Assembly: GCA_964019415.1 (NCBI GenBank)
Contig: OZ025882.1
Coordinates: forward strand, 2,830,427-2,894,426
Origin: Ianthella basta
Lineage: Eukaryota > Porifera > Demospongiae > Verongiida > Ianthellidae
Reading direction: 5' to 3'
DNA length: 64,000 nucleotides
The notes below the pieces were generated by a model, which saw nothing but the letters and a program-made list of their open reading frames with translations, ran no database searches and had not been told where the DNA came from. How positions within the stretch are numbered: the first letter of the stretch is position 1; each line of letters starts with the position of its first letter. Below, piece by piece: positions 168-63,668 of this stretch. The position numbers were made by a program, and so were the translations under genes.

Positions 168-611
168 ACAATTTCCATGACTTCAACTGTGTACCACGTG
201 ACAGAGCAGATGATGGCTACCAGTACATAGCCCCCAACCTGACTTTCCCCTGTGATGGGGTTGTGACCAAGTGGAAGATTGGAACAGAGGATAGGAGGAA
301 TGAGGTGGTGTACCTCCAAATATGGCGACCTGATGGAACAGACTACAGTCGTGTAACTGAGACTGTTTATACCCACAGTGGTGGGGAAGCAATAGCAGAA
401 GTCTCCACAGACATGACTGTATCAGCAAGGGATGTTGTTGGGTTCTTTATGCAAACGTATAGGGAGGGGCTTAGATTGGCTTGGGCTTCAGTACCTGACC
501 ACACCCTCCTGCGAGGAAGTAGGAGTGCTCAAGGTGTCACTCCTGTAGCAACATTCAGTGACGTCTCTGCAGCTACCTTAAGTTCATCTCCTCTTGTGTC
601 AGTTGAATTTG
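168..611 (+). CDS. Copy 1 exon: extracellular domain D1a
   Basis: A 444-base phase 1-1 exon between a TCCTCAG acceptor and a GTAAGT donor. It encodes about 148 residues with alternating hydrophobic strands. Landmarks are the YQYIAPNLTFPCDG segment with an N-glycosylation site (NLT), the VYLQIWRPDGTDYSRV core, and a DVVGFF segment near residue 95. Two cysteines (CVP and FPCDG) could form a disulfide. The domain repeats as D1b and in every other copy. I do not recognise a named Pfam family; unnamed sponge and cnidarian surface proteins have a similar look. A beta-sandwich fold is my inference. Open frames on the opposite strand here are shadows. Confidence 0.8.
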
Positions 612-3600
612 GTAAGTGTACCATGACTGTGTGATTACATGTTGTGCTCTTGACTGCTCATGAGTTGTTATCTGTGTACCAGTTGTACAGTGTGAGCTGC
701 AGAGACTGCATGGCTACTGATTAAATTTAAGACTGCTTTATGATAATTGCTAAAGCTACCTAAATGCAAGCCTTTCCTTCCCTGCACATAATACACCATG
801 TTATACCACACCATCACTGAAGTTGGTCAAGACAGCATGGTGGTCAAAGCAGACAACCTGTTGTGCGACAATATGTGAATGGTTCAAGTGGTACTGTTGA
901 AATGGTGCCACTGCACAGGCTTGGCTGATGACAGTAGGATCACTGGGGTTTGTGCCACCTGTCTGCTACAGCACTTTGGTGTCACAACAAGGCAGGGGAG
1001 GGGGCATAGGCCCTATTAATTCACTGCCAGACCTTCCCCCGAACAGGCTACACAGACAGCTTTAATTTGTGCTGTACAGTGTAGTGTAAGTTTAAGTGGT
1101 GGATGGGATATCTGCTTCTTCTATATACATGTATTCATGCACCAAAGTTAAAACACTTGAATTTGATTTAAGCAGAAGTGGAAAATTAGGGAGGAGCATT
1201 AGTCTGGAACACAGCTGGACTAGGAGTCAGGTTTGTTCATGTGAGACCTTTCATTAACAGTCATTTAATAGGGCTAGTGTACGTCCTAATGTCATAATTT
1301 GAGACTTGACAGTGGCAAACCACTGCAAACGTCGCACCTAAACAAACCTGATGCCAGCCATCTTCCTGGCTAATGCTCCTTCTGAATTTATGCCATTTCT
1401 ATTGAAACGATAAGTGTTCTAACTTCAGTGGATACAAAGCAAAAGTAGCAGAAATCCTTTTCACGAACAATACATGCACCACAATGATGTGCCCCAGTCG
1501 GGTGCAACAGCTGTCTTTGGCTCTTCATCTCTATAGGATGTTAGGGGGAAGATCTGGCAACCCCCATGCAGCCTTGCTGGGACACCCACAGGTGTAGCTG
1601 GCTGGTGACATATATAACCCCAATGATTTTATTATCATTAATACTACTATAGTACTGTATACTTCACATGTGTGATTAACATGACTGAATATAGCAATGT
1701 CATACTTGGAATAATTTGAATAGCATTTGACTAGCAGATCATAATCACATACATGACATCGTCATAGTTTTTCTTACTCATTGTCAATTTCCTCTAAGAT
1801 CATAATTGCATAACACAATAAAACATACATAATAATAAACATAATAATGCATATAATAAAATATATGTAAATATGTAAATAAATGTAATAAAATATATGT
1901 AAATATACATAATCATAAAAAATGCATAACACATGACATGTACACTGTCATATAGTTTTGCCTACTCTATTTTCAATTTCCCTTACATATAGAACCAAGT
2001 GCTTCTTCCTGTTCTACACCCAACTCAAGTGGAAATGGTAAGTAGCTGCTGATCTAGTTTGCAATTCAGTGTAGAAGGGACTGTATATAGAGTGATTTTG
2101 GAAAATGTGACTCCATGGGAGCTTACCTGGTACTCTGTAACAATGTCTTTTCCTTGAGGAGACACTCTTGCAATGTGGCAATACAGTGTGTAATCTGGCC
2201 ATTGTATTGTATTATTGATTATATTTTGCCAAATGTTTGAATGGTGTTGCACCTTTTCACCTCATCTTACAGACTGTCTTGGTGCATTTGCTGATTTCAA
2301 TTTTGTTTGCGGTGATGAAGTCTCACGCAATGCCCAGTACATCATTCCACAACTCAACTTCTCCTGTAATGGTACTGTGACTCAGTGGAAGGTGGGACTG
2401 GAAGAGCGACGCATGCACAATAATCACGAATTGAACCTTCAGATATGGCGCTCAGTGGGCGAAGGAGAGTACAGCAGAGTGACTGAGGAGGTGTACACTA
2501 AAACAGTTTATGAGATATCTATAGCTACTGTTCCAGTGTCCATGTCAGTGATGGCAGGAGACATGGTTGGGTTCTATGTTTCTAGAGGAGAGCTGCAACT
2601 TCACACTGCACCTGATGTGGGCCTTACCATGTACACTACTAGGGGAAGTCCCGCCTTATCACTAGCTGCACTTGAGTCTGTTGTGGGACCATCTCCATAC
2701 ATCTCAGTTGTGTTTGGTGAGTGATTGTAGCTATAATGTAATGACACAATTCACTGCTACTTGTAAGCAGACCCTAATGTTCACAGGATAGTCTGCACCG
2801 TTATTTGTTATACACAATAAATTTGATCACATCAATCTGTATACTTACAAACTGTGCACACTATACACCACACACACCCATAGTACATTTGCAGCACAGA
2901 AGTGCAACATACATTTGGTGGCTTTATCATATACTCAACATAATTATGCAATTCTGTATGTTTGTTTGTGCAATAGTTAAGTTTTAATACTAATATCTGT
3001 TCATTCGTGATTCAAACAAACACTGCAATACAGAATGTTGCCTACCTCCAATGGATTATGGAAAACAGATTAGGAAGTGTCTACCACAGCTATAATATGA
3101 GTACACAAAAATGGTAGACCAAGTAGACCTCCATTATTATTTCCATTGCAAGAGATTCTGGATATTCAGAGAGTGTCTATAATAGGTAGTCTTGCAATTA
3201 GGATAATTGCTTCCTTTCCTATTAATGAATGCTTGGTTAAATGCGGTGTCCTGTGGCATGAAAATCAGCTACAATGGCAGCTGGGTGCACTGCCTAGAAT
3301 TGTGGTCCAATAGCTATGGGCTAAAGTCTTCCCCATGCAGTCTAATTAATAACGTCTGATACCTGAACAATAGGTGTATATTCAAACCATTCTCTTGATT
3401 TAAGTGGTGTGATAGCGGAACACTCTTTTATGAACTTTGTGATAATATTATTTGTAACGAATTATCATGATATTCGACATTACTGTGATAGCAGCAGCTG
3501 ACCATGAACACAACAAGTAAGAGATCATGATACAAAACAAAATACAAACCAATCCCAATAACTCTCAGACGTACCGCAGCAATGGGAAATGCTTTCTTAA

Positions 3601-6600
3601 ATCAAACGAAGGACACCTACTAATCTCTCTGTATTCCACTGGGTGAAGAGATCTGCACATATAATTAACAACTGAGGGGAATTAAGCATTGCAATCAGGG
3701 AGCTAGCAAGGTACTGCATATACGCACTGGATGATGCAAACATGCACTATTGCAGTGAGAAAGATCAAGAAGTGGCTGTCATGGGTCTCACAGGGAGTGA
3801 TACAACAACTATCAACTATCATCCCGATGCCATCAAAATTTCATTCATCTTGGAACTTCTCTACCAAGGCCAAACATCCCTAGCTTCCTACCAACTTTAT
3901 CGGTATCTCACATTTCAAGATGTCATGATCACTGATCTAGGAACTATACACACTAAAGAGTCCTTACTTAGGTGCTAAGGTGCCCCTACCATGCCACATT
4001 ACTCCTACAGATGAACAAAAACTCCATCCATGATTGGTTATATAGAGGCAGTTGACCAATCAGTGTGGAAATTGTACAGAGAAAATGGAGTTGGGACCTA
4101 GATTCACAAAACCAAACCTTCTAGACTTGCAACAGAAATTCAATGCTATTATAGAGCCAGAAGTCAACAGTAGGATGCGGGAGCAGACATAGGCAGGTCG
4201 CTCAGTTAGTAGGACAACTCTCCTTTTGTGAGAACAATTCAGAAGCTTGAACACCCTCAACCCCCCACCCCTTTCAGGTGAGGAACAATGAGAGTAGACT
4301 CCAGATGTCAATCCTGCCAGCTACCACCACTACTATACCTCATTGTGCAATGCATGTCCTGCTTGCCTGACCAACAAACATATGGCAGTGTGTTACACCT
4401 GGAGATGACCAAGCATGAAAATCTAGAGATGTTCCCTGATCTCGAAGGTCCATGTCTGGCATCAAGTCCCGACTGCTAGGAGCCTAAGTGCTGGCAGAGC
4501 TGCTTGCACGGTCTGGAAATCAAAACTGCAAATATCCCTCCTCCACCATACCCAATGGAGCCCTTGTCATTCTATTTACCCAGACACTGTGGCATCACTT
4601 TGTGGTGCTAACTGTGATATATACAACTTGCCAGAAAGCCTCACCGAATGCTGCAAGTAAATCAAGACCAACTGCCATCTAGTCTTGACTGAACTAGGCT
4701 CATCACCATAACAATTTGTAATTAGATCTCATTGTGAGCTTTTATCAATGCATGCCATAATAATACACTTGTATCTGTATATCACAATGCCACATAATTA
4801 TTTACTATGAAAATAATTGTAGATAAACCCAGGAGTGCATATTGTGCTAACTCCTGATCAAACACTAAATATGGCATTCACCCTTGCCATGCCTAATCCC
4901 ACTTTCACATTGTGCGCTTGAACCATGTGGCTAGATATTATGCTTGGGTGTTTAGTGTTCCTCAACCTTGGCTATGTCAGTTCTAATGCATGGTGTTTGT
5001 ATATGCCATCACAGCAAGGGTGTTTGTTCTTTGTTGTGCACATATATACTGTGAAGCTGTGCAGTATGCTTTAGTATAGCAGTTACTTGTATATATATTT
5101 ACTTTGTTCAGTGCCTGATGTCACAAGCACCTCAGTCTCATCAATGACATCAACTGCTCCACCTTCTCTAAGAACATCTGCTGCAGTCTCATCACTGACA
5201 GTAGCCACAAGTGTCTCACCTAGTACTGCAGATTTGTCCTACTTTTCATTCTCATCAGAAGAGCTCCCAATTGCTGTGGAGTCATCCACCCCACAGAGTA
5301 GTACTGTAATAGCTGTGGGTGGAGGGAGCAATGTTGGTCTCACCCTCTCAGGAAGTGGGTCTGCCGCTATCATTGGAGCAGTGGTGGCTGTGGTGGTCAT
5401 CCTCATTGTTGTGTCAGTCATTGTTGCTGCTGTGCTAATTGCATGGAGAGTGAGTAGGAGGGAAAAGAAAGCAGCTATAGGTGAGCAGAACGTAATATCT
5501 TTCCATGGGCTTGTATGAAGCTGGCCATATGTAATATGCACACCCCAGACCATCTATATACAGAGCCATCCACATGGACATCCTCCCCTTTTTATTTGTT
5601 TTCCATATGTGACCAACCCACCTGGCAGGCCACTTGAAGTATCATGCCAGACCAAGCTCCTTGGCATCAGCTAGAGACAGCCTTTAGATTGATGACTGCA
5701 ATGTAGGCTGCTCTGCTTCAGCTGTACATACATCTACTGCTGCCTCAGTATGGCTAGGTGGTCCACCAGACGGCACCCTTTTACTGCACCAATGTTTCAC
5801 TTACTACTCTCTGCTAGGATCTCAGTGTGAAACAGGGTTGGTAAGTACAAGGTGACATATATACGTAGCAGCAGGTTTCCCTCATCATTTGAGGAGAGTA
5901 ACTACCTCTGCAAGAATCCAACTAGTTGAGGTGGTGTCTGTGTTCGAGCGCTTTGAACCTGAAAAGGAATTGTGTGAAGTGAAACACCCCCCTCTGCCTA
6001 GTAGAGCTACCACTGTGATGTTGCGCAATGAATTCTACGTGCTTTGCGTTTCTCATATCCACAAACTATGTTGTAATCTTTCCTAGTGTATAGGTGGGAC
6101 TGGTGGGATAACTCCAATCTAAACCTTGGGGCACTCATGGTAGTGAAGGAAGTAGCCATCCTATTTGGGGTGTTAAGTTGTTGCTGTAGGCAGAAGAAAT
6201 GACTCTCAACTGCTTCCATCATTTACGAGCATTCCTTCCTGGTCATGAGCCCCAGGGACATGTGGTGTCCATTTTTAAAGTTCACTCAGCAGTTGTTTCA
6301 TGTCATCAGTTGCAAACACCTGGTCATCAAGTATAAGAGAGGAAAGGTTTACAGTGGCTAGGGTCACATTCTCCTCACTTTATGAGAAACTATAGTAATG
6401 ACACCATCTCCTGTTGGACAAGACTATTGTATGTGGAGTACTTTTAGCCATGTCTTTAACTTGTCACAAGTACTGTTAAGTTTGAGTGCATTCTGTAGAG
6501 TGATCACCATGCAAGAATATAATTATATGCAGAAGAACCTGGGAAGCAAACAGAGAGAGGAATATATATAATATTTTATTAATTTGGCATACTTGTACAG

Positions 6601-7377
6601 GCAACTCCGCATGTTTGGACACTAATATTCTCAGAAAGGGTTGGTTCTCTAATACCAGCTTCACAACAGGGTTGAAAACCTTGCCGACGTTTCGACCAGA
6701 TGCTCTGGTCTTTTTCACAGCGAAGATCTTCGCCATGAAGAAGACCAGAGCATCTGGTCGAAACGTCGGCAAGGTTTTCAACCCTGTTGTGAAGCTGGTA
6801 TTAGAGAACCAACCCTTTCTGATGCCTGAGCCAGCTGAGAAGCCCTCACTTCACTAATATTCTCATTTTATGATGTGAATGACACATCTGTCCAGCTGTA
6901 GGTCATCCCCTTTCAGAGGACAGTACTGTTATGAACATGGAGCACAGCCCATCCTACTGTGCAGTTCAAGGAGGACTGGTAATGGAAGCTAACCCTGCTT
7001 ATGAGCAAACTAGTGGTAAGTGACACAACTTATTCATCACAGTCTTGTGGTAGGCAATGTTTAACACCAGATGACATTTAATAGCTATGCTACAACTCAA
7101 AGTTTTCCAAATTGATCAAAGCACAATTAAACGGAAACAGGGCAGTTCATTCATTTCTAGACAAAGATCTAATTGTACATTTCTGTACATTTTAAGCAGA
7201 ACCTTCTCACATGATCACTTGTCAACTTCACTGTCCTACGTATATGCTGTAGGTCTTGCAGAAGAAAAAACAGTTGTGACTATGCAGGACAACCCATCCT
7301 ATGCTTCAATGGAAGGAGTGAAGCTGGAGCTAAACCCATGCTACTCAACCATGCAAGAAACATCTGACTGTATTTGA
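168..7377 (+). CDS. Family R receptor-like gene, copy 1 (5' end outside window)
   Basis: Type I membrane protein assembled from exons 168-611, 1993-2037, 2273-2716, 5112-5480, 6902-7015 and 7253-7377, all joined in phase 1. The signal-peptide exon is expected left of the window because copies 2 and 4 have it 2.2-2.6 kb before D1a. Order: D1a domain, Ser-rich linker, D1b domain, long Ser/Thr stalk with TM helix, tail exon A, and a hybrid B/C tail exon ending in TGA. The visible exons give 1541 bases, which with the phase-1 base from exon 1 is exactly 514 codons. No disabling mutation is seen. Function is unknown; a surface receptor or adhesion role is inferred from the stalk, TM and tyrosine tail. 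The stalk is 50 residues longer than in copies 2 and 4. Confidence 0.75.
940..1610. repeat. Long-inverted-repeat (foldback-like) element, copy 1
   Basis: The inner arms, about 1140-1245 and 1345-1440, are imperfect reverse complements; both carry the AGCAGAAGTGG / CCATTTCTATT type core and the CAGGTTTGTTCA / GAACAAACCTGATGCC stretch. Outer arms around 960-1040 and 1540-1610 also mirror each other (TTCCCCC near 1035, GGGGGAAGATCT near 1545). Related elements lie at 16535-17230, 17572-18122 and 49230-49920. There is no coding capacity, so this is a non-autonomous element. Confidence 0.65.
1993..2037 (+). CDS. Copy 1 exon: Ser-rich linker
   Basis: A 45-base phase 1-1 microexon between CATATAG and GTAAGT. 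It encodes a 15-residue Ser/Pro linker (E-PSASSCSTPNSSGN) with one cysteine and an NSS glycosylation site, joining D1a to D1b. It is conserved at 17415, 19090 and 50882, with a longer relative at 62540. It is too short for ordinary ORF searches; conserved splice sites and frame across copies support it. Confidence 0.75.
2273..2716 (+). CDS. Copy 1 exon: extracellular domain D1b
   Basis: A 444-base phase 1-1 exon (acceptor CTTACAG, donor GTGAGT). It encodes a second D1 domain, clearly paralogous to D1a: QYIIPQLNFSCNG matches QYIAPNLTFPCDG, LNLQIWRSVGEGEYSRV matches VYLQIWRPDGTDYSRV, and DMVGFY matches DVVGFF. It starts DCLGAFADFNF and has cysteines near residues 2, 13 and 27. The NFS and NGT motifs are possible N-glycosylation sites. 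Tandem D1 domains are the signature of this family. Confidence 0.8.
2717..5111 (+). other. Large intron between D1b and stalk/TM exon, copy 1
   Basis: No convincing exon. A degraded open stretch at 3742-3978 has relatives in copies 2, 3 and 4 (22100, 37486, 52790) in differing frames, so it is shared intron or an old repeat relic. TCAGTTC at 4977-4983 is the unoccupied site of a Penelope-like terminal element that fills the same place in copies 2, 3 and 4. Confidence 0.6.
5112..5480 (+). CDS. Copy 1 exon: Ser/Thr stalk plus transmembrane helix
   Basis: A 369-base phase 1-1 exon, acceptor TTGTTCAG, donor GTGAGC. The first 80 or so residues are a Ser/Thr/Val-rich stalk beginning VPDVTSTS, likely O-glycosylated. 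A hydrophobic helix of about 25-28 residues follows (AAIIGAVVAVVVILIVVSVI and on to VLIAW), then a basic stop-transfer RVSRREKK. The equivalent exons of copies 2 and 4 are 219 bases; the extra 150 bases lengthen the stalk. Confidence 0.85.
5481..6619 (+). other. Intron between TM exon and tail exon A, copy 1
   Basis: No exon detected. The stretch 5530-6500 is collinear with 39890-40780 (copy 3) and 54770-55720 (copy 4), so it is duplicated intron. Copy 2 has a shorter intron here. Confidence 0.5.
6620..6864. mobile_element. Penelope-like terminal-repeat pair (inverted pLTRs) with 13-bp target duplication
   Basis: The element, 6633-6851, is flanked by direct repeats CACTAATATTCTC at 6620-6632 and 6852-6864. 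It is a near-perfect inverted repeat centred near 6728 (AAGATCTT), with arms of about 90 bases. Both arms match the end of the Penelope-like element at 19564-20989. Each arm carries the stem GACCAGA-GCA-TCTGGTC followed by GAAAC, the stem II and GAAA part of a hammerhead-ribozyme-like motif, though the upstream CTGA core is mutated in both arms. Copies 3 and 4 lack the insertion at the matching intron position. Confidence 0.8.
6902..7015 (+). CDS. Copy 1 tail exon A
   Basis: A 114-base phase 1-1 exon (acceptor CTGTAG, donor GTAAGT). It encodes a cytoplasmic segment with two tyrosines 15 residues apart, in SPSYCAV and NPAYEQ. The NPxY form can bind PTB domains in known families; the YxxV motif resembles an SH2 or immunoreceptor half-motif. 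Exons A, B and C share the same two-tyrosine plan, suggesting they arose by exon duplication. Confidence 0.75.
7253..7377 (+). CDS. Copy 1 terminal tail exon (hybrid of B and C)
   Basis: Starts at 7253 in phase 1 after ATGCTGTAG and ends at TGA 7375-7377. It encodes DNPSYASM and NPCYSTM motifs. The upstream intron matches the one before exon B of copies 2-4, but the coding text (VVTMQDNPSY) matches exon C, so a deletion between B and C appears to have fused them. The end SDCI-stop arises because the frame differs from the related exons, which read on to an EPI/ELI-type end. Confidence 0.7.
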
Positions 7378-12873: not shown

Positions 12874-12919
12874 GATGAATGTGTTGACAGGAATAGGCTG
12901 AGCCATATGCATGATGTGA

Positions 12920-13365: not shown

Positions 13366-13441
13366 ATGGCAGTGTGTTGGTGGCTGGCTGGCTGTAGTTT
13401 ACTCTTCGCATGGAGATCGGAGACAATTCTGGCACAAAGAG
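13366..13441 (+). CDS. Copy 2 exon 1: signal peptide
   Basis: ATG at 13366, 25 codons plus one base, donor GTAATA at 13442. It encodes MAVCWWLAG followed by a hydrophobic run and ETILAQ, a typical secretory signal with likely cleavage near the end of the exon. Phase 1 matches D1a. Homologous first exons lie at 45691 and, more diverged, at 61342. Confidence 0.65.
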
Positions 13442-35841: not shown

Positions 35842-36197
<356 letters not shown>

Positions 36198-38135: not shown

Positions 38136-38259
38136 TAATGCATAGTGTTTGTATATGCCGTCACAGCAAGGGTGTTTGCTCTTTGTTGTGCACATGTATA
38201 CTGTGAGGATGTGCAGTATGCTTTAGTATAGCAGCTACTTGTGCATTTACTTTGTGCAG

Positions 38260-38471
38260 TACCAGATGTCACAAGCACATCAGTCATACCAATGACATCA
38301 ACTGCTCCACTTTCTCTAGGAACATCAACCCGGCCTGGAAGTGGGTCTGCAGCTATCATTGGAGCAGTGGTGGCTGTGGTGCACGTGGTCATCCTCATTG
38401 CTGTGTTAGTCATTGTTGCTGCAGTACTGATTGGATGGAGAGTGAAAGGAGGGAAAAGAAAGCAGGTACTG
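38260..38471 (+). pseudogene. Copy 3 stalk/TM exon, frameshifted
   Basis: Acceptor TTGTGCAG and donor GTAAGC remain. The stalk and TM are readable, with a 6-base gain adding HV within the TM helix. The exon is 212 bases, not a multiple of three; the shift occurs at GTGAAAGGAGGG versus GTGAATAGGAGGG of copies 2 and 4, so tail exons would be read out of frame. Confidence 0.7.
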
Positions 38472-40910: not shown

Positions 40911-41024
40911 GTCATCCCCCTCCAGAGGCCAGTACTGTCATGAACATGCAGCACAACCCATCCTACTGTGCAGTCCAAGGAGGACTGATAATGGAGGCTA
41001 ACTCTGCTTATGAGCAAACTAGTG
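40911..41024 (+). pseudogene. Copy 3 tail exon A
   Basis: A 114-base phase 1-1 exon with intact splice sites, encoding NPSYCAV and NSAYEQ. The Pro of the second NPxY motif is replaced by Ser. It lies downstream of the frameshifted TM exon. Confidence 0.65.
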
Positions 41025-41261
41025 GTAAGTGACACAACAATTCATCACAGTCATGTGGTAGGCAATGTATAGCACCAGATGACATTTAATGGCTATGCTA
41101 CAACTCACAGTGCCCCAAATCAGTCAAAGCACAATTAAAGGGGAACTCGGCACACTAATTATTTCTAGACAAGGTTCTAACTCTACATTTCCGTACATCA
41201 TAAACAGAACCTTTCACAAATGATTACTTGTCAACTTCACTGTCCTATGTATATGCTGTAG

Positions 41262-41408
41262 GTCTTTCAGAAGCAAACACAGTTGTGAATATGCAGGCCA
41301 ACCCATCCTATACTCCAATGGAAGATGGAGTGACACTGGAGCCAAACCCATGCTACTCAGCCATGCAAACAGTCTCTGTCTATGAGCCAATCAATGACAA
41401 AGGAAAAG
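41262..41408 (+). pseudogene. Copy 3 tail exon B
   Basis: A 147-base exon with full motifs NPSYTPM, NPCYSAM and SVYEPI. Tyrosines two and three form YSAM-x5-YEPI, close to the immunoreceptor YxxL/I-x6-8-YxxL/I pattern but one residue short. Confidence 0.65.
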
Positions 41409-41683
41409 GTTGGTACACTACAATGTGTCTAGGCATTGATGAACTGGTAGTTTTTGCCTTGCAGACACTTCTGAATATGATTAGACATCCCTAGTAACAT
41501 CCCTTAACAACTGTGCTACAACTCACAATGTTGAAAGCCAATCATGGTGCCATTAAAAAGAAATAATACTAGTCAAAGTTCAGTTTGTTCCTTCTCAGTC
41601 TACACATGATAATGCAATTTGTACCTCTTGCATTGTGATTGTTATTATTTGTCAATTTCATTAGCCTGTGCGCCCTTTTGTAG

Positions 41684-41817
41684 GTGTTCCTCCTTCAGAA
41701 GCAAACACAACTGTGACTATGCAGGACAACCCATCCTATTTGCCAATGGAAGATGAAGTGACAATGGAGCCAAACCCATGCTACTCAGCCATACAAGGAA
41801 ACTCTGACTATATATGA
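41684..41817 (+). pseudogene. Copy 3 tail exon C
   Basis: Starts after TTTTGTAG. Motifs NPSYLPM and NPCYSAI. A short insertion near 41811 gives SDYI-stop (TGA 41815-41817), where copies 2 and 4 read on for about ten residues. Confidence 0.6.
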
Positions 41818-45690: not shown

Positions 45691-45763
45691 ATGGCAGTGT
45701 GTTGGTGGCTGGCTGGCAGTATATTCCTCTTCGCGTGGAGACTGGAGACAATTCAGGCAAGAG
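45691..45763 (+). CDS. Copy 4 exon 1: signal peptide
   Basis: ATG at 45691, 24 codons plus one base; encodes MAVCWWLAGSIFLFAWRLET then IQAR. The donor is GTAGCT, weaker than the GTAATA of copy 2. Start chosen by homology with 13366 and the hydrophobic leader. Confidence 0.6.
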
Positions 45764-48700: not shown

Positions 48701-51700
48701 GAAGGGAGAGTGCTGGAGGTGTCACTCCTGTAGCAACATTCAGTGACGTCTCTACAACTATTTTAAGTTCATCTCCTCTTGTGTCAGTCGAATTTAGTAA
48801 GTATGCCATTAATTGTGTGATTGCATGTTGAGCTGTTGACTGTAGGTCTTAATGCCAGTAGTATGTACATCTCATGTCTGATCATTATATCATGACTATG
48901 TATGTATGGTGGGTTAGGGGTTAATACATGTTACCCATGTACGAGTTGTTCAGTATGAGCTACAGAGATTGACTGCTGATTAAATTTAATGCTGCTTAAT
49001 GATATTAATTTTGCTCAAGTTAAAGCTCATTCCTACTTTCCAGCTAGTTATATACAAGCCTTTCCTTTCCTGCGCAAAATACACCATGCTGGTATACCAC
49101 AACATTCTACACCATCACTGGAGTTGGTCAACACAGCATGGTGGCCAATTAAAGCAGACAACCTGTCGTGCCGGACAAAATGTGAACGGTTCAAGTGGCA
49201 CCGTTGAAATGGTGTCACTGCACAGGCTTGGTTGATGACAGTAGGATCACTGGGGTTTGTGCTACTTGCCTGCTACAGCATTGTCACAACAAGGCAAGGG
49301 GGCAAAGGTTATTAATTCACTACCAGATCTTCCCCCTAGCATATGCATACTATGAAGATGGAGAGCCAGCTTCACCCTAATTTGCACTAGCTCATCAGTG
49401 CAGCATAAGTTTGGTGATAAGGATGTCTGCCTCTTCTTCGTGCATCCACCGAAGTTAAAACAGTTATGGTTTCAGCAGAAGTGGCAAGAATTAGCGAGGA
49501 GCATTAGCCTAGAAGACAGCTGGAGTCAGGTTCGTTCATGGGAGACCTTTTTTAACAGTCATTTACTAGGGCTACTGTCCTACTGTCATATTTCGAGACT
49601 TGGCAGTGGCAAACCATTGCATGCAAATGTGTCACTTGCATGAACAAACCTGATGCCAGCCATCTACTGGCTATTGCTCCTTCCTAATTTGTGCCACTTC
49701 TATTGAAACCATAACTGTTCTAACTTTGGTGGATGCAAAACAGGAGTAGAGCTGAAATCCTCTTCATGAACAATATACATGCCACAATGATGAGCCCCAG
49801 TATATTGGGTGAAACAGCTGTCTGGCTCACCATCTCTATAGGATGCTAGGGGGAAGATCTAGCAGCCCCCAGCCTTGCTGTGACCTGATGACATTGGTGT
49901 AGCTGCCTGGTGACATAAACCCAATGATTTTATTGTCTTCATTATAAATTATTCCACATGTATAATTAACATGACTGAATACAGCAATATCATCTATATA
50001 CAGTACAAGTTACAATATACTAGGGTGAAGTCGTACAAAGAATGCACCCAAAATGGGTATGGGGCAGCAGCGTGGGATGGCCTGGCAGAAATGTGCTTGC
50101 CATGATATTAAAGCTCTCATCATTTGGCACTTATCAAGTATTCATTTTTCCTGATTAGGCCTTTGTTTCTGTGGGAGGGGGGCTGAAAGACTGCATATAA
50201 ATGCCCATAGGAGAATACTGAATGTACTGTGCATTCATACTGAGACATAGTGAAGCCTACTATTGAAAAAAAGTGCCACATACAGTCATGAACTGTAGCA
50301 GCCATGGCCAGGCGGTCCATCTGACTTGTGCCATGGGTATGATTGTGCAACGTGGCTCATGCGACCCACACTATAGACAGGCAAACAGAGAAATACTGTC
50401 TTCCTGTTTGAGTACCTGGAATGGCCTGGCGGTAAAAAGCACATTGCGATATTAAAGTGCACGGCATTTTCCGGCATACATTTCCTTAGTTTTTGCAGCA
50501 GGCCTTTGTTCTCGTGTACAGCGCTCTGAAAGTGCACATATAAATGTACATAGGAGAACACTGCAAGTACTGTGCATTTATATCGAGACACAGTCATTTG
50601 TAGCATTCCAAACAACACCAGTGCATACCGTCACAAACCGTGGCAGCCGTGCCCAGGTGGTCCAGCTGACCCATGGCATGGGTGCGATTGCTTAATGCGC
50701 CTCAAGATGGCTGCAATAAAGTGGGGTAATCTAATTATAGCACCAATCAGCACCAATTGGTGGGAATCAACACCTATGCAGTATTTAGAATAATTTGAAT
50801 AGTATCTGCATGGCTAGCAGATCATAATCACATACACATGACAGTTTTGCTTACTCCATTTTGAATTTCCCTTACATACAGGACCACATGCTTCTTCATG
50901 TTCTACACCCAGCTCAAGTGGAAATGGTAGGTAGCTGCAGCTAGGTCTGGTTTGCAGTTTGTATGTATGTAGAAGCCACTGCATTTTGGAGAATGTGACT
51001 CCATGGAGACTTACACTGTAGCAATGTCTTTGCCTTGAGGGGACTCTCTTGAAATGTGCCAATACAGTTTGTAACCTGGCCATGGCTTACATATAAGAGC
51101 TCATATATGTATTATCTGTTTTATTTTGCCAAATGTATGGTTGGTGTTGCACTTTTGCCCCTCATCCTGCAGACTGTCTAGGTGCATTTGGTGACTTCAA
51201 TTTTGTCTCTTGTGGTAAGGTAGTACCAGACAATACCCAGTACATCATACCTGAACTCAACTTCTCATGCAACGGTATTGTGACTGAGTGGAAGGTGGGA
51301 CTGGATGAAACTGGCATTGATGAAGAAGTGAATCTTCAGATATGGCACTCAGTGGGTGCAGAAGAATACAGCAGAGTGACTGAAGTGGTGTATACTAAAA
51401 CGGACAGAGATGAGAGGATAGCTACTGTTCCAGTGTCCATGTCAGTGATGGCAGGAGACATGGTTGGGTTCTATGTTCCTGATGGACAGCTGCGACTTCA
51501 CACTGCACTTGATGTGGGCCTTACCATGTACACTACTAGGGGAAGTCCCACCTCATCACTAGCTGCACTTGAGTCCGTTGTGGGACCATCTCCATACATC
51601 TCAGTTGTGTTTGGTGAGTGATTTACAGCTAACATGTGAGCCTTACCATGTACTCTATTAGGGTAAGTCCCACCTCATCACTTATAATTGGGGCACTAAA

Positions 51701-54700
51701 CTCTGTGGGACCATCTCCATTCATCTCAGTTGTGTTTGGAGAGTGATGTATAGAATAGCTAGTGGTTTAATGGCCAAAGGCTAAAGTCTTCACTAGTCTA
51801 ATTATTATTAATGCCCGATATACCTGAACTATAGGTGTATATATCCAAACCATACTCCATGGTTAGGCATGTGTGATAATGATCTTCTTTGCACTTTGTG
51901 ATATTCTTACTGATTCATCATGATATTTGATATTATTGTAATAGCAGCAACTGACAGTGAAATCACATTAATTATGACATGATACAAAACAAATAGCCAG
52001 CCAATTTCAATAGCTCTCAGATTGTGGCAATGACAAATGCTTTTTCAACTGATGGAAGGACACCTACTAATCTTTATGTAGTCCACTGAGTGAAAAGATT
52101 TGCAGATTTAATTAACATCCAATTATCCACCAATGACAGAGGAGGGTGGCCATGTATCACGTGACTGTGTCAGGGAAGCACGCGCGTAGTAAATTTATAC
52201 ACATACACACTATAAATATTCTGTACTGTAGGGCGACCCTTTTTTGCTTTCTTGCTCGAGCTTGCAGGTATCCGCATACTTTGCACACCATTCAAAAACG
52301 CTGCTGAAGCAGAATCTAAAATTGATTCTACCCCGCTAAGCCGGTAGACGGCGGAGAAAAAGGGAGCTTCTTCACGTGCAAGCGAAGATAGCAGGAAGCA
52401 CGAAGAAGGTATGCAAAACTGGTCACCCCTTCTGCAAGAATGACACATAAGAAACTGCCAACTTACTCCTTTCTTGGTCACTTGCAGCCATCGTGCAACA
52501 TACTGTGTAGTATTATTCTTACGCGGTGACGTCATAGATGGGTTGTGCAATCAGAATCATGGCCAACCTCCTCTGCACCAATGACTTCAGAAGGCACTCC
52601 AAACTTAACACAATTCTGCACAGAACAGGCACTGAATCCACCCCCCCTCCTCTCACACGCATGTGAGTGTCTCTGTAGTTGAGGGGAAATAAGCATTTGC
52701 AATTTGGGAGATAGTAAAGTACTGCATCCAACCTTTGGATGATGCAAGCAATTACAATTAGAAAGACAAGGAAGTGACCATCGTGGCCCATGCAAGTAGT
52801 GATACAACAACTATCAACCATCCTCCTGATGCTGTCAAAATCCCATCCATCTCAGAACGTCTCTACCAAGGCCAAACACCCTTTCCTAACAACAGTATCA
52901 GTATCTCAAGATGTCATGATCACTGGGCTAGGAACTATACTCTCTAAAGAGTCTGTGTTTGAATCAAATGTGATATATAGGGTATTGGGTGTTTAGTAAT
53001 CCTCATCCCGGCAATGTCAGTTCGGAACAAATTGTAATTGCCAAAGTTTTGGCCAACTGCTCTGGCCTTCTTCAGGATGATTAGTGAAGAGACTAATACG
53101 GCCACTGTCAATTTATAGGCATGCATACAGTTACATTTAAGTGCCTGGCTGCTGGTTAGCTACTCTAAAAAGGAGGCAGGACAAGACAAACCGCAGCCAG
53201 ACCTTGGCATGTGACATCCAGTGATGTCTAACGCCATTTGATGCATGCCTATAAATTCTATTAACTATTAGATTCACCCTGAACATGGCCAGAGCAGTTG
53301 GCTGAAACGTTGGCAATTTCAATTTGTTCACTAAAGTTCATATCAAGAGAAGCATTTGTCCTAACATGCAAGAGCCAACTGAGAAGCACCCTCTCTAATG
53401 TCAGTTCTATAGCATGGTGTTTGTATATGCCATCACAGCAAGGGTGTTTGCTCTTTGTCATGTATACTGTGAGGCTGTGCAGTATGCTTTAGTATAGCAG
53501 TTACTTGTATATTTACTTTGTGCAGTACCAGATGTCACTTCAGTCATATCATTGACATCAACTGCTCCACTTTCTCTGGGAACATCAACCCAGCTTCCTG
53601 AAGGTGCTCCCTCAGGAAGTGGATCTGAGGCTATAGTTGGAGCAGTGGTGGCTGTGGTGGTCATCCTCATTGTTGTGTCAGTCATTGTTGCTGCTGTACT
53701 GATTGCACGGAGAGTGAATAGGAGGGAAAAGAAAGCAGGTATAGGTGAGCAGAGCTTGTGTTTGAAGTATGTGTGTTAGTTAGCTTAGACTGTTCCAAAG
53801 TTTTGGGGCTCACAAGTACTTGATCATGAACTGGTCAAGTAATAATGCATTGCTATACATGTACATGCACAATGTAAACAAGGTAGACTATAGCAATGAC
53901 TGTATACGTGCAACTTGTGGCTTGCATAAGAGTTGTAATCATTCAGAGCTACATGGTTGAGCTATCCATGGACTGCTGGAAAAGGTGGTGTCTTCAACCA
54001 TTGCATTTCATTTGTGTAATCTTCTGCATTTTGGCTTCAACATCCTTTGAGTTACTGTCATGCATGACATGAGCATACCTATACTATGGGGTACTACCCA
54101 TGACCATTTTTAATTAAATTTTGCTGTCTTTCTTGCCTCATGTTGGTGGTCACAATCAGCATTATTCTCTGTTGGTGACTATCGGCTTGGCTTCTTATGA
54201 GTCAACGGTGGATCATTCTTACCACACACATACCTGCATATCTCATGGCCTGTTGAGTTCATACATGGGATTGATGTGCTGTGTGCATTCTGGTTGTCAG
54301 TTGCTCACTACTGCATGATGGTGCTAGCTATAGGTTTTAGTCATCATACAGCAAACCACTGGATGTGATGGCCAAATATGCCCAGCTTATCCTGCTCAGT
54401 AGTTCCATTTCACTGCATTGAACATTACTGCAGAGTATAAGCAACATGTTTGAGTTGAAGGGGGTGATCTTGTAAGTGCAGGCACTCGCATCACACATTT
54501 GACTCCACCAAGTCCTATATTATTGTTAGAGGCAAGGCATTGATCAAAGTTCATCCTCTTGCTATACCAATGGATGGCAATTGGACATATGCCCAAGTAC
54601 TTAAACTGTTGGATGTGGCTGACATTTCCTCCACATAAACTCAGGTACCATGTAGTACTTCTGCTTTGGTAGGGAATGACATGGACCAACCACTCAGTCT

Positions 54701-56791
54701 TTCAGTTCAACTCCATCCTTTCATTCATGACGAATTTCTAACAGGGTTGGCATACCTTTCTGTGCATGGGCTTGCATGGTCATATGTTATGTGCACACCT
54801 CAGACCATCTATATACAGAGCCATCCACATGGTCACCCTCCCCTTTCCACATGTGACCAACCCACATGTCAGGCCACCTGAAATATCATGCTAGACCAAG
54901 CTCCTTGGCATCAGCTAGAGACAACCTTTAGATTGATGACTGCAATGTAGGCTGCTCTGCTTCAGCTGTACATACATCCACTGCTGCCTCAGTGTATGGC
55001 TAGGTGGTCCACCAGACTGCACCCTTTCAGTACACCATTATTTGACTTTCTACTCTCTGCTGGGATGTCAGAGTGGCACAGGGTTGGTACAAAGCGACAT
55101 AGGTAGCAGCAGGCATTTCTCATTATTTGAGAAGAGAACCACTTCTGCAAGAATCCTGCTAGTTGGGGCAGTGTCTGTGTTTCAACACTTTGACCCTAAA
55201 AAGGGATTGTATAGGAGTTAAGCCCCCCTCCCCCCTCCCTCTGGCTAGTAGGGCTTCCACTATCATGTGCTATGAATTCTACCTACTCTGTTCTCTTCAT
55301 ATCCTCAAACTGTGTTGAAATCTTCCCTAGTAAACATGGGGCTGGTGGGATGGCTTTGATCTAAACCTTGGGGTACTCATCCCACGGAAAGAAGTAGCCA
55401 GCCTTTTCTGGGCTGTTGAGTTGTTGCTGTAGGTGGGAAGCATGATTCTCAGCCACTTCCATGATTTACAAGCCTTAATTCCTTCCCAGTCATGAACCTC
55501 AGTGACATGTGGTGCTCATTTTTATAGAGTTCATTTAGCAGTTGCTTCATGTCATCAGTTGCAACCACCTGTCCCTCACGCAGAAGAGGGAAGGGTTTAC
55601 AGTGTCTAGTCACATCCTGCCACTTCCCAGTGCCACCATCTCCTGTTGGGCAATACTATTATTTGTGGAGTGCTGTTATAGTTAGAGTGATCACTATGTG
55701 AGAATATGCAGAAGAACATGGGCAGCAAACAGGGAGAGCAGTTATATAATTATATTTAATTAGACCTACTGGTACAGGCAACTCCACTTGTTTCAACTGA
55801 TAGTTCCCTCACTTTAGGACATGTATGGCACATTCGTCCTGCTGTAGGTCATCCCCCTCCAGAGGCCAGTACTGTCATGAACATGGAGCACAACCCACCC
55901 CACAGTGCAGTGCAAGGAGGACTGGTAATGGAGGCTAATCTTGCTTATGAACAACCTAGTGGTAAGTGACACAACAATTCCTCACAGTCATGTGGTAGCC
56001 AATGTATAGAAGATTTGAAGTTTTGATAGATTATGCTACAACTCCTAAATTGATCAAAGCATAATAGAAAGGAAAGATGTCAAGCATCATTTCATTTCTA
56101 GACAAAACTCTAATTGTACTTTTTTGTACACCTTAAACAGTACTTTCCACACCTGATTACTTGTCAACTTTGCTATCCTTGCATATATACCCTATCTATA
56201 ATTTATGCTGTAGGCCATTCGGAAGTAAACACAAATGTGAATATGCAGGCTAACCCATCCTATACTCCAATGGAAGATGGAGTGACACTGGAGCCAAACC
56301 CATGCTACTCAGCCATGCAAACAGTCTCTGTCTATGAGCCAATCAATGACAAAGGAAAAGGTTGGTACACAGCGATGTGTCTAGGCATTGATGAATGGGT
56401 AACTTTTGTCATGCAGACACTTCTAAATAAATTGTGGTTGGACATTCCTAGTAACATCCCTTAATCACTGCTATAACTCACAATTAAAGCTGAAAATCAA
56501 TCATGGTGGCATTAAAAGGAAAAACAACTAGTCAAAGTTCAGTTTGTATATTTCTGGCCAGTCATATAATTATGCTATTTGTACCTTCAACACATGATTA
56601 CTAGTCAATTTCACTGGCCTGCATGCCCTACTGTTCCTCTTTCAGAAGTAAACACAGTTGTGACTATGCAGGACAACCCATCTTATTTGCCAATGGAAGA
56701 TGGAGTGACACTGGAGCCAAACCCATGCTACTCAGCCATGCAAGCAAACACTGACAATGAGCTGATCAATGGTAAAGGAAAAGGTTGGTAG
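45691..56791 (+). CDS. Family R receptor-like gene, copy 4 (complete)
   Basis: Exons: 45691-45763 signal peptide; 48353-48796 D1a; 50882-50926 linker; 51173-51613 D1b; 53526-53744 stalk/TM; 55848-55961 tail A; 56214-56360 tail B; 56646-56791 tail C. Every junction is phase 1 and the sum is 1629 bases, 543 codons with stop. Predicted protein: signal peptide about 24 residues, D1a about 148, linker 15, D1b about 147, short stalk, one TM helix, basic stop-transfer, tail about 135 residues with five tyrosine motifs remaining. The most convincing intact member. Odd points: tail A has lost its first tyrosine, and the exon C acceptor has moved. A cell-surface recognition role is inferred from architecture. 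Confidence 0.75.
46261..46440. mobile_element. mariner-like miniature element with TA duplication
   Basis: Element 46263-46438 (176 bases) between TA pairs. Ends CAGCCAATTTCAGAATGGTT and, reverse-complemented, CAGTCGATTTCAGAACGGTT match in 17 of 20. Copy 2 has one TA at the same place (GCTCAATACAATGTG near 14000), a paralogous empty site. Confidence 0.8.
47340..47369 (+). repeat. G-run with quadruplex potential
   Basis: A stretch of G tracts of 3-10 bases with single T or A spacers within intron 1 of copy 4. It meets the four-tract quadruplex pattern and is absent from the same intron of copy 2. Confidence 0.6.
48353..48796 (+). CDS. Copy 4 exon: domain D1a
   Basis: A 444-base phase 1-1 exon, acceptor TCCTCAG, donor GTAAGT. 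Landmarks: CVPDDRVDDRYQYIAPNLTF, VYLQIWRPNGTDYSRV, DVVGFFMQEGGDGLRVAW. It is closer to copy 2 in the C-terminal half and to copy 1 near the start, which may reflect gene conversion between copies. Confidence 0.8.
49230..49920. repeat. Long-inverted-repeat element, copy 4
   Basis: Inner arms 49438-49545 and 49640-49745 are reverse complements with about 100 bases of spacer. Outer arms share CTAGATCTTCCCCCTAGCAT in one orientation near 49325 and its complement near 49850. About 690 bases, no coding frame. Confidence 0.65.
50073..50715. repeat. Tandem pair of ~345-bp repeats, copy 4
   Basis: Counterpart of 18275-18910, with units starting near 50073 and 50418. Preserved in both duplicated genes, with no conserved reading frame. 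Confidence 0.6.
50882..50926 (+). CDS. Copy 4 exon: Ser-rich linker
   Basis: A 45-base phase 1-1 microexon, acceptor CATACAG, donor GTAGGT. It encodes PHASSCSTPSSSGN preceded by a split codon. Confidence 0.7.
51173..51613 (+). CDS. Copy 4 exon: domain D1b
   Basis: A 441-base phase 1-1 exon, acceptor CCTGCAG, donor GTGAGT. Reads DCLGAFGDFNFVSCGKV, QYIIPELNFSCNGIVTEWKV, LQIWHSVGAEEYSRV, DMVGFYVPDGQLRLHT. One residue shorter than copy 1. Intact. Confidence 0.8.
51614..53016 (+). other. Intron after D1b, copy 4
   Basis: No exon. ACTTATAATT at 51680-51689 is the empty target of the Penelope-like element present in copy 2. 51655-51750 is a partial echo of the D1b exon end (GGGACCATCTCCAT, CATCTCAGTTGTGTTTGG), also seen at 21020 in copy 2. 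Confidence 0.55.
53017..53407. mobile_element. Second Penelope-like terminal element, copy 4
   Basis: Element 53024-53400 between TCAGTTC repeats. Same position as in copies 2 and 3. Left arm on the minus strand has CCTGAAGAAGGCCAGAGCAG; right arm has CTGAACATGGCCAGAGCAG then TTGGCTGAAAC. Confidence 0.65.
53526..53744 (+). CDS. Copy 4 exon: stalk plus transmembrane helix
   Basis: A 219-base phase 1-1 exon nearly identical to copy 2: VPDVTSVISLTSTAPLSL, then the GAPSGSGS stalk, TM (IVGAVVAVVVILIVVSVIVA), and RRVNRREKK. The TM-end Trp of other copies is Arg here. Confidence 0.8.
53745..55847 (+). other. Intron between TM exon and tail A, copy 4
   Basis: No exon. Collinear with the intron of copy 3 and, for its first half, copy 2. 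Small frames here are not conserved. Confidence 0.5.
55848..55961 (+). CDS. Copy 4 tail exon A (first tyrosine lost)
   Basis: A 114-base phase 1-1 exon with intact splice sites. Where other copies read NPSY, this reads NPPH, and the second motif is NLAYEQ rather than NPAYEQ. The module is open but both NPxY motifs are altered, unlike tail B and C of the same gene. Confidence 0.7.
56214..56360 (+). CDS. Copy 4 tail exon B
   Basis: A 147-base phase 1-1 exon after ATGCTGTAG with donor GTTGGT. Full motif set: NPSYTPM, NPCYSAM, SVYEPI. The frame stays open to 56464 if the donor is ignored, so an alternative C-terminus ending SNIP, as in copy 2, is possible. Confidence 0.7.
56646..56791 (+). CDS. 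Copy 4 terminal tail exon C with shifted acceptor
   Basis: The TGTAG acceptor used by copies 2 and 3 is missing here because a few bases are deleted. The next AG, CTCTTTCAG ending at 56645, keeps phase 1 and removes about five codons. The exon then reads VVTMQDNPSYLPM and NPCYSAM and ends KGW-stop (TAG 56789-56791). Confidence 0.6.
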
Positions 56792-61341: not shown

Positions 61342-61396
61342 ATGGCTGTGGTGTGGCTGGTTGTGTGGATCCTGAAGGCAGCTCTGGCACAAGGAG
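61342..61396 (+). CDS. Copy 5 exon 1: signal peptide
   Basis: ATG at 61342; MAVVWLVVWILKAALAQG, a clean hydrophobic leader with an ALA-Q cleavage motif. Donor GTAATT. CCCAG just upstream could also be an acceptor from a 5' UTR exon. Confidence 0.65.
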
Positions 61397-63668
61397 GTAA
61401 TTGGCAAGCTACTGTCATGGGTGTGCATATTTTGGAGATAGCCTTCTCTTTACTGAAAGATGCTGACAGGTAGATTATAAACTACCAATCAAACTACTTC
61501 AGTTATGAAACATCTTTTTGGATCCATTGGAGGGGAGTGGCACCCTATTAGCTCTATAACGTACTGAAATTAAAGTTGTATGCACAGAAAGTGTGTGTTT
61601 TCAGATAGTATATTACTGGTTAACTATGGTTGGACCCTTTTATCTATGGTTGGACTATGATTGTATCATCAGTGGCATTACAGTTCCTTCACTGTCTCCA
61701 AGTATCTTTGTTGTTACCCCATCAGGGAAAGTAGGTAGAAACACATATCTCAACTAGACCTTCTAAATAGAACGCATGTCCCATCCTGCAGCCTCACCCG
61801 ACCTGCTGCTCACTGCTGCTATGGAATCGTTTACCCCAACTATCGGTGGCACCCGTTCCACTTTCAGTTCATCCCCTCAGTCAGTTGGTAAGTATGATGA
61901 TGTGATTGTACAAATGTACCATGTATTATGCGGGGTATTGTGCAGCACATGGCTATATTATTTCTATTCACTGTGTGCCGCACATGCAACGCATACAAGT
62001 AGTTGTGTTACAACAAACTCTGCATGCGCTTGATTTGCATGGAAATTACGTTACACTTGCAAGTGTATTCATAGCCTGTTTTCTTAGCTTAATCACCCTG
62101 TGCAAGAGGATATAATGTTTTGCATTTTAGACTGATACATGTCAAGTCATAGGGTCTGAGGAACAGATTGAACCACAATAATATTACATACACTCAATGC
62201 CTTGCTGCATTAACACATGCACGCATGCCTATGATTCCATGAATAAGAAAGCTGCCACCGCCCTAAGACTCTAGCTGCCCACTCTCAGAATATTCAAACT
62301 ATAACTGTTACAAATAGTGTATTTTCAGTCTACTGTATAGTCTCGTATAGCCATTCTCTTTCCACAGCTTCTACTTTGCACTAAACTCCTCTGTGGGGAG
62401 TCATAGTGCAATATATAGTGGAAGTGTAGGATAGATTTAGTCAGGTGAGATTAGGTACATCATAATATCATGTATGTTGGGGCTCATTCATTTTAAATTC
62501 CTACACATTCACAAAACAGCCCAATGCCCTTCCCAATAGAACCATGTGCTCCCACCTGTGCCAATGCCAGTGCTACTGCAGCTAGATCTGTTTCCAATAA
62601 GTATGGTAAGCTAACTGTCTGGTTCAGCTGTGCTTTTGCCTTTTGTATTAGAAATTCTAAGAATGTACTTACTAAGTAAGTGCAAATTGTTCTGAGCATA
62701 ATTTGTGTGTACCTGTTATACATACCTATAAATTGGCATTTAGTTCATAGGTTTAACGAGATATGGTTATGAAGTGATGGCCTAGAATTATCACTGTATG
62801 TCAGTCAGTTTGCCAAATTGATAAATAGTAACAGTTATGGGGTTAACGTTGGACTGCATACTGTATCTTTGTACCTCTCCTTGCAGGTTGCCTGCGTACA
62901 TTTGCTGACTTCACATTTGTCAATGGTAGCAGAGCAAACGATAGCACTCAATACATCATACCACAACTTAACTTCTCCTGTAATGGCACTGTGACTCAGT
63001 GGAAGGTAGGACTGCAGAGTGGTAGAAATTATCTACTGGATCTTTACCTTCAGACAGGGGCGTAGGAACACTTTCAAAACTAAGGGGGCCAAACATACAG
63101 AGCGGCAGGATATTATATTCATATTTAGGTCACGGGTCGATTGCGCAATCCGTAAAATGGCTTCCAGATGCAAGTCTCTAACCAGAAACTTAAACAACAG
63201 GTTTTGTTGAATGTAGCTTCGAACGAAAATGCTGTGGACTCACTCTGTATACTTTTGAGAGATGGCCTGAGTACTTGCTAGCCAAATTATAGATTACAGA
63301 AGTGAGACAAGACTAAAAATCTATGGGGGCCAGGTCCCCCTCTTTTGAAATCTGGGGGGGGCCATGGCCCCCCTGGCCCCCATGGTTCCTACGCCTATGC
63401 CTTCAGATATGGCGCTCAGCAGCCCCAGGACAATACACCTTGGTCAATGACACAACCTATACCAAAACAGCTAATGAGAGGATAGCTACCGTTCCAGTGT
63501 CCATGTCAGTGATGGCAGGAGACATGGTTGGGTTCTATGGCCTGTGGCGACTTCATTTTACATCTGATGCTAGCTTTACCATGTATTTGGCTACAGGTAC
63601 TACCACCTCACTACTGCGTCCTCTTCGCTCTGTTGTGAGATTATCTCCATACATCTCAATTGTGTTCA
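61342..63668 (+). CDS. Family R copy 5, diverged single-D1 member (continues past window)
   Basis: Exons: 61342-61396 signal peptide, 61792-61887 Ser/Thr stretch, 62540-62605 Cys/Ala/Ser linker, 62887-63668 D1 domain interrupted by a transposon. Phase 1 throughout. No D1a lies between signal peptide and linker, so this subfamily has one D1 or acquires more downstream. The D1 exon minus the insertion and one target copy is 429 bases, divisible by three, so the ancestral exon was open. With the insertion in place the exon has stops; as seen here it is disrupted. Confidence 0.6.
61792..61887 (+). CDS. Copy 5 exon 2: Ser/Thr segment
   Basis: A 96-base phase 1-1 exon, acceptor CCTGCAG, donor GTAAGT, encoding SPDLLLTAAMESFTPTIGG then TRSTFSSSPQSV. 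No counterpart was found in copies 1-4. Confidence 0.55.
62540..62605 (+). CDS. Copy 5 exon 3: linker
   Basis: A 66-base phase 1-1 exon after CCCAATAG, donor GTAAGC. It reads EPCAPTCANASATAARSVSN, related in position and composition to the 45-base linkers of other copies. An earlier AG (CAAAACAG) is rejected because TAG follows in frame. Confidence 0.5.
62887..63668 (+). pseudogene. Copy 5 D1 exon split by a hAT-like insertion
   Basis: Acceptor TTGCAG at 62886, donor GTAAGT at 63669. Before the insertion: GCLRTFADFTFVN, QYIIPQLNFSCNGTVTQWKV, LLDLYLQ. After it: IWRSAAPGQYTLV, DMVGFYGLWRLHFT, LSPYISIVF. The insertion (63055-63399) breaks the domain within the conserved LQIWR motif. Confidence 0.75.
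63047..63407. mobile_element. hAT-like miniature element with 8-bp target duplication
   Basis: Element 63055-63399 (345 bases) between CCTTCAGA at 63047-63054 and 63400-63407. Ends CAGGGGCGTAGGAAC and, reverse-complemented, CATAGGCGTAGGAAC. CAGGGGCG-type termini and 8-bp duplications are features of the hAT superfamily. It has no transposase. Confidence 0.85.

Follow-up and report, generated by a model that had tools for sequence, protein, structure and literature searches.

Kinase-less tyrosine-tailed receptors in a clustered gene array of the sponge Ianthella basta share their putative ectodomain with receptor tyrosine kinases

In the ErbB2/ErbB3 pair one partner brings the kinase, while ErbB3, which is kinase-deficient and keeps a pseudokinase, offers many YxxM docking sites. 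Vertebrate paired receptors such as KIR and PIR are encoded in clusters and possess similar ectodomains, with an ITIM tail on one side and adaptor pairing on the other. We analyzed a stretch of 64,000 nucleotides from the sponge Ianthella basta (the window; assembly GCA_964019415.1, contig OZ025882.1, here C15, 2830427–2894426, + strand) on which five copies of a receptor gene lie head-to-tail on the + strand. Judging from its exons, the window would hold kinase-less members of a family of single-pass receptors that is clustered in the genome and includes receptor tyrosine kinases (RTKs); the family is built upon an ectodomain that we call D1.

The available text of PMC6485061 describes a lineage-specific expansion of Eph receptors in sponges, that of PMC4054682 the RTK families of choanoflagellates, and the accessible part of PMC12018476 cites a Geodia cydonium RTK with an Ig-like ectodomain. 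The Hydractinia allorecognition complex comprises 41 Alr genes, according to the portion available of PMC11999971. Self/non-self recognition is specific in sponges (PMC5450542, in excerpt); an established sponge receptor locus for it did not surface in the literature searched, in which the aggregation factor is a discussed candidate.

The window forms part of an array that runs for about 616 kb along C15 on one strand. Searching the genome (209 Mb, 96 contigs) with the first D1 exon, all 92 candidates being scored, gave 78 matches at E≤1e-3, and because 78 of 78 places fall on one contig, C15, the matches are beyond chance. The main group extends over 2.750–3.367 Mb, entirely on the + strand; a second and more distant group (D1′) lies at 4.289–4.442 Mb on both strands, and a single further match at 2.368 Mb. 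A query from the second group (112 of 112 candidates scored) had 83 matches at E≤0.01, 81 of them on C15 and two, both weak, on contigs C4 and C8. A first-pass annotation of the window had proposed rapid copy turnover, and this is borne out: long pieces of C15:2748694–2777240 repeat 79–81 kb downstream, the longest (8–9 kb) being 96–98% identical. This block duplication (2748694–2777240/2827885–2858385, pieces 95–98% identical) spans copies 1 and 2, and parts of the window are therefore recent duplicates of upstream sequence.

D1 is also the ectodomain of RTKs in the same array. A Pfam kinase search (best 130 of 2397 candidates) located a kinase at C15:3232423–3233715, and the stretch around it contains, in order, D1b (the second D1 exon), a stalk/transmembrane (TM) exon, juxtamembrane (JM) tyrosines, and then kinase exons, in which VAIK, HRDLAARN and DFG are present. 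By order, strand and frame, as read from genomic exons rather than cDNA, D1b, TM, JM and kinase exons belong to one array gene, and an RTK is likewise found at C15:4285501–4293500. Here two genes stand head-to-head: on the + strand a D1′ receptor with TM, JM region and an N-lobe kinase exon, and on the − strand a D1′ receptor with TM and an NPxY tail, the D1′ of the two being identical at 149 of 155 residues (96%). In a second head-to-head pair (4308105−, 4309081+) the figure is 134 of 155 (86%).

Scoring of the best 150 of 342 candidates for a kinase-exon query revealed that the main array contains, beginning at 2.965 Mb, at least 21 such exons and the second cluster at least 11. For two kinase exons that were tested, EGFR, Eph receptors, and either FAK or MET were among the nearest PDB matches. 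None of the matches listed for the kinase-exon query lies at 2.74–2.965 Mb, the next one downstream being C15:2965017, and six kinase-exon queries against the 200 kb around the window (C15 2.73–2.93 Mb) gave one match at E<0.5, of 25 amino acids at 0.058. As far as their exons can be read, the window's own copies are without a kinase domain. The first-pass annotation had offered these copies as the best candidate for an undescribed system; they are receptor-like as it supposed, but since the same ectodomain and TM occur on RTKs in the array the system is not free-standing.

The kinase exons C15:4293072 and C15:4311606 are each 100% identical to the 72-residue query, and each belongs to a gene standing head-to-head with a kinase-less partner. 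The pair seems to have been duplicated very recently, although the D1′ differ more. Further groups of related kinases occur on C22, C8 and elsewhere on C15.

The tails are rich in tyrosine motifs. Thirty-one tail exons from C15:2.73–2.93 Mb (1351 residues, 77 tyrosines) contain 47 NPxY, 34 YxxM and 27 NPxYxxM, as against means of 0.6, 5.0 and 0.04 in shuffled sequences, and 19 of the 23 spacings between successive [NS]PxY measure 15 residues, which supports the tyrosine-motif character that the first-pass annotation gave to these tails. NPxY binds PTB domains, and pYxxM binds the SH2 domain of p85. An ITIM-like pattern was found seven times in the same exons, which is not over chance (shuffle mean 2.9, maximum 9); this count being within the shuffles and NPxY and YxxM dominating, ITIM-type tails were rejected. 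Derivation of the tails from the JM regions of RTKs was rejected as well: none of nine comparisons gave a clear similarity, the best being matched by 16 of 300 shuffles and the others by 48–293.

Exons of this tail type also occur beyond the two clusters, with seven among kinases at C15 0.73–0.81 Mb and a few elsewhere. On the − strand at C15 0.70–0.94 Mb NPxY tail exons are interspersed with kinase exons, D1 matches being weak there; going by this group, pairing of kinase and tail may be a general rule in the genome. On C11 (4.56–4.80 Mb, −) there are eight tail-like exons, with no C11 kinase among the best 150 of 342 kinase-query matches.

Based upon these ends, the genes fall into two forms, K with a kinase end and T with a kinase-free NPxY/YxxM tail end. 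The stalk/TM exon is common to both, and K and T therefore diverge in the intron that follows it. In the two clusters 81 D1 (77 +, 4 −), 33 kinase and 53 tail places (51 +, 2 −) were ordered, including two D1b remnants; 22 of 75 tail rows (C22, C11, and C15 beyond the clusters) and the kinase and D1 rows outside the clusters were excluded. When + strand D1 exons no more than 6.5 kb apart are taken as one gene, and ends are assigned to it within 12 kb, 57 genes result (30 K, 23 T, two with both ends and two with neither). The − strand contributes two T genes, with two D1 fragments lumped in, which gives a total of 59 D1 genes: 30 K, 25 T, two with both and two with neither. Under this distance rule end exclusivity holds, and both end-less genes, a broken group at 2805604–2810748 and the stop-ridden 3330226, are damaged. 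Only 2 of the 17 + genes with at least two end exons are mixed (label shuffles gave a mean of 9.6, with 2 of 5000 as low), and the kinases of the main array (20 of 21) lie at a median of 3.7 kb 3′ of a D1, a distance as low in 86 of 5000 random placements.

A tree was built from 53 intact D1 exons, 28 of K and 25 of T genes. It needs 17 changes of the K/T label, the shuffled mean being 17.7 and 219 of 500 shuffles as low. Careful trees for each class, made without shuffles, have 4 changes for D1a (18 rows), 9 for D1b (24) and 5 for D1′ (11). Adjacent K and T genes of the second cluster group together (4322251/4329704, 4337696/4342982 and 4289401/4289901), and a single T clade is rejected (p-AU 7e-50). 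Since K and T are interleaved on the tree, ectodomain and signalling end have recombined repeatedly, by conversion or crossover, which phase-1 exons would permit. As in paired receptors, a common ectodomain is thus found with two signalling ends in one cluster.

Selection was assessed as dN/dS (ratio of means), which is 0.70 for D1a (18 sequences), 0.59 for D1b (24), 0.63 for D1′ (11), 0.73 for TM (6), 0.48 for tail exon 1 (11) and 0.86 for tail exon 2 (17). Core windows descend to 0.1–0.3 and some loop windows reach 1.0–1.6; dN exceeds dS in 33 of 152 pairs for D1a and in 57 of 131 for tail exon 2. The pattern shows coding constraint, with freer loops; strong positive selection on D1 was not shown by dN/dS.

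Taking the exon modules, the two ends and their exchange, and the motif content as they are read in the genomic sequence, we consider it probable that these are paired receptors, an RTK and a kinase-less docking co-receptor whose ectodomains have repeatedly been exchanged. The D1 domains, as jelly rolls, would bind one another or else a surface ligand, be it glycan, polymer or protein, and contact with a neighbouring cell, a microbe or the matrix would cluster the receptors and join K with T. K could then phosphorylate its own tail and, in trans, the tails of T, while T would recruit PTB/SH2 adaptors, for example PI3K through YxxM, and might amplify, divert or damp the signal, in the way of kinase-deficient ErbB3 beside ErbB2. 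Copy turnover and variable D1 loops would diversify specificity, like recognition receptor clusters.

Several points weigh against the paired-receptor reading. Five T exons and one K exon are assigned to no gene, and two genes carry both ends. The tree of 53 exons was made by a quick method; 26 of its 50 inner branches are weak, and the long branches of D1b and D1′ meet. T genes of the main array occur in blocks, adjacent K–T pairing being clear mainly in the second cluster, and the K counts are lower bounds because 150 of 342 candidates were scored. The joining of exons is deduced from splice signals and phase, and three of the window's copies (2, 3 and 5) carry damage. Finally, an overall dN/dS below 1 gives no demonstration of diversifying selection, and the values for tail exon 2 suggest that constraint may be weak on part of the tails.

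Alternatively, this might be an ordinary lineage-specific expansion of RTKs engaged in developmental or environmental sensing, with no self/non-self or immune role, and we regard this as a serious contender, if somewhat short of probable. It agrees with the other related-kinase groups on C22, C8 and C15, with an overall D1 dN/dS below 1, and with the sponge Eph expansion, as far as the available text of PMC6485061 describes it. Against it, the repeated decoupling of ectodomain and signalling, the head-to-head pairs with similar ectodomains and the recent block duplications are more typical of recognition loci, which is an argument by resemblance. An immune or allorecognition role is plausible, the first-pass annotation having likened the copies to recognition or immune receptor clusters, but it is rather less likely than not. 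A larger proposal, which strikes us as rather unlikely, would make the array a major recognition complex on RTKs in an early-branching animal, with D1 as a new jelly-roll family, dozens of clustered genes on a single chromosome, each kind of ectodomain present as a pair of RTK and kinase-less NPxY/YxxM receptor, and continual exchange between them. Were it true, the paired-receptor principle would have been invented independently here, and the complex would become a candidate for the allorecognition locus of sponges.

What D1 might bind bears upon another possibility. The first-pass annotation could not name a family for the domain, and its sequence indeed matched none in Pfam or PDB (best E 0.038, to unrelated names), on which ground a known Pfam/PDB family was rejected; nor did a sequence match to any known non-receptor family appear. 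Prokaryotic and viral relatives were not confirmed for any of 46 and 18 pattern matches. Structure prediction, which had been suggested as a check, gave for two D1 models (pLDDT 64 and 72) a beta-sandwich resembling polymer- or carbohydrate-binding jelly rolls, and these ranked at the top for both. For the first model the best Foldseek E was 0.036, with 0 matches at E≤0.001. There was no Pfam Ig match to D1, and no C-type lectin or Ig model matched it in these searches; the jelly-roll ranking itself leaves an Ig fold possible. That the receptors serve in pattern recognition of microbial or symbiont surface glycans, and not of allogeneic cells, is possible but on the doubtful side: the models do look like carbohydrate- and polymer-binding jelly rolls, but a common fold proves no function and the models are of moderate confidence.

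It is unlikely that the T genes represent RTKs which lost their kinase and have since degenerated or turned into decoys, with tails that have no signalling role and leave them at most as ligand sinks. The damage to copies 2, 3 and 5, the high dN/dS of tail exon 2 and the loss of some tyrosines (as in tail exon 1 of copy 4) would fit such decay. Against it stand NPxY and YxxM, which are far over shuffles and regularly spaced, and the dN/dS of tail exon 1; the same tail type recurs among the kinases at C15 0.73–0.81 Mb, and the tails have no clear similarity to kinase JM regions and hence are not like simple truncations. Very improbable is a choice by splicing between K and T as alternative 3′ ends of the same genes: exon phase is equal where the two forms part, both ends occur in two genes and K genes lie downstream of some T genes, but for 55 of the 59 D1 genes the ends within reach are all of one kind, the copy 1 tail runs into an in-frame stop, and no credible kinase exon was found in the 200 kb read around the window.

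The exon order deduced for the window's copies from splice signals, phase and recurrence is signal peptide, D1a, D1b, stalk/TM, and tail exons 1, 2 and 3 (two or three being present; Table 1). In an alignment of 12 D1a exons an AG acceptor and a GTAAG donor, both phase 1, are conserved, and in copy 1 the exons for D1b, stalk/TM and tail give the same phase-1 reading. An exon for the signal peptide, consisting of MAVCWWLAGCSLLFAWRSETILAQR and one further base before a phase-1 donor, recurs 5′ of D1 exons in a motif search. Signal-peptide exons lie in the window at 13366, 45691 and 61342, the last of a second type, and that of copy 1 is 2.3 kb outside it, at C15:2828106. The first-pass annotation described five head-to-tail copies with common exons, and we agree on order, strand, and the stalk/TM and tail exons of copies 1–4; D1a and D1b are both whole and open, however, only in 2 of 5 copies, 1 and 4. 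The signal peptide it considered common was located for copies 1, 2, 4 and 5, and the motif search found none for copy 3. Copy 2 retains only the C-terminal part of D1b, adjoining retroelement-like frames; no D1a match was found in copies 3 and 5, the D1b of copy 3 being broken, with a stop, and that of copy 5 split into two pieces. The number of D1 exons thus differs among copies, as the proposal of a variable ectodomain number had it. The in-frame stop in the tail of copy 1 is at 7375. Copy 5 has no tail in the window because the window ends there, its tail exons following past the edge, at C15:2895392. A linker, also listed as a common element, is not supported as an exon. Stops interrupt the stretches homologous to it in several other copies, and there was no match to it between D1b and TM at C15:2922093–2923251 or in the kinase gene C15:3226876–3228747.

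Table 1. Deduced exons of the five receptor copies (window positions)
Feature	Position	Strand	Remarks
Copy 1 D1a exon	168..611	+	phase 1-1; 12-copy alignment, AG acceptor, GTAAG donor
Copy 1 D1b exon	2273..2716	+	phase 1-1
Copy 1 stalk (Ser/Thr-rich) and transmembrane exon	5112..5480	+	phase 1-1
Copy 1 tail exon 1	6896..7015	+	SPSYCAV, NPAYEQ; acceptor possibly a few bases 3′
Copy 1 tail exon 2, with stop	7253..7377	+	NPSYASM, NPCYSTM
Copy 2 signal-peptide exon, MAVCWWLAGCSLLFAWRSETILAQR plus one base	13366..13441	+	phase-1 donor
Copy 2 D1a exon	15636..16085	+	exon alignment
Copy 2 D1b remnant, C-terminal part	19416..19508	+	retroelement-like frames immediately 3′
Copy 2 stalk/TM exon, transmembrane part	22926..23058	+	5′ exon start not fixed
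Copy 2 three tail exons (23617, 23990, 24411)	23617..24542	+	
Copy 3 broken D1b exon	36961..37227	+	without N-terminal part; stop after LHTAPDS
Copy 3 shortened stalk/TM exon	38259..38462	+	
Copy 3 three tail exons (40904, 41255, 41680)	40904..41817	+	
Copy 4 signal-peptide exon, approximate end	45691..45760	+	
Copy 4 D1a exon	48353..48796	+	exon alignment
Copy 4 D1b exon	51173..51613	+	
Copy 4 stalk/TM exon, transmembrane part	53612..53744	+	
Copy 4 three tail exons (55841, first tyrosine lost; 56207; 56636)	55841..56755	+	
Copy 5 signal-peptide exon, second type, MAVVWLVVWILKAALAQG	61342..61396	+	
Copy 5 D1b, two pieces (62889-63050, 63392-63670)	62889..63670	+	

A second module lies 3′ of receptor copies 1–3 (window 9400–9950, 27023–27860 and 43651–44490) and consists of exons B1, B2 and a TM exon with a tail ending in ...PAYEPVYL. 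Eight array copies of its TM are 84–100% identical to the copy at 27632, two of them with a stop, and relatives exist on C4, C16 and C1; whether the module is a separate gene or a remnant is unclear. A different gene, at window 29283–29720 and 30812–32250, specifies a signal peptide and an unnamed domain followed by EGF-like repeats; its first exon has relatives on C18, C11, C8, C2 and C1, with another at C15:2898396. Adjoining the D1b remnant of copy 2, at window 19734–20991 (−), is a reverse-transcriptase-like frame with a GIY-YIG-like stretch, which we take to be a Penelope-like element. The short frame QGCVLSPWLFNIFMDRIM at window 37153–37506 (−), beside the broken copy 3, is presumably also reverse-transcriptase-like. 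Elsewhere in the genome a silicatein probe met cathepsin-like sequences, CGSCW being the one active site that could be read, and two weak matches to innexin passed the cut-off.

The literature searched on sponge RTK expansions, NPXY tails and kinase-linked allorecognition, which left aside preprints and most subscription papers and was in part available as extracts, does not describe this arrangement. Regardless of what D1 binds, ectodomains that are repeatedly uncoupled from their signalling ends would amount to a tyrosine-kinase-based paired-receptor architecture, and a clustered, fast-evolving family offers one defined locus for the self/non-self question in sponges. Like the RTKs of early animals and choanoflagellates, the K forms are single-pass receptors with a tyrosine kinase; unlike them, the ectodomain is D1, which no Pfam model matched, and nearly half of the D1 genes are kinase-free with an NPxY/YxxM tail. 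With ErbB2/ErbB3 the family would share the proposed division into a kinase partner and a docking partner, but here the kinase is absent and tail exons take its place, and the genes are clustered and number in the dozens. KIR and PIR resemble it in having clustered genes and ectodomains common to forms with different signalling ends, whereas the alternative here is between a kinase and an NPxY/YxxM tail, and D1 gave no Ig or C-type lectin match in the searches described. The Alr genes of Hydractinia are likewise a receptor gene cluster in an early-branching animal; their ectodomains are Ig-like and their part in allorecognition is established, while D1 is not detectably Ig and is at most a candidate for such a role.

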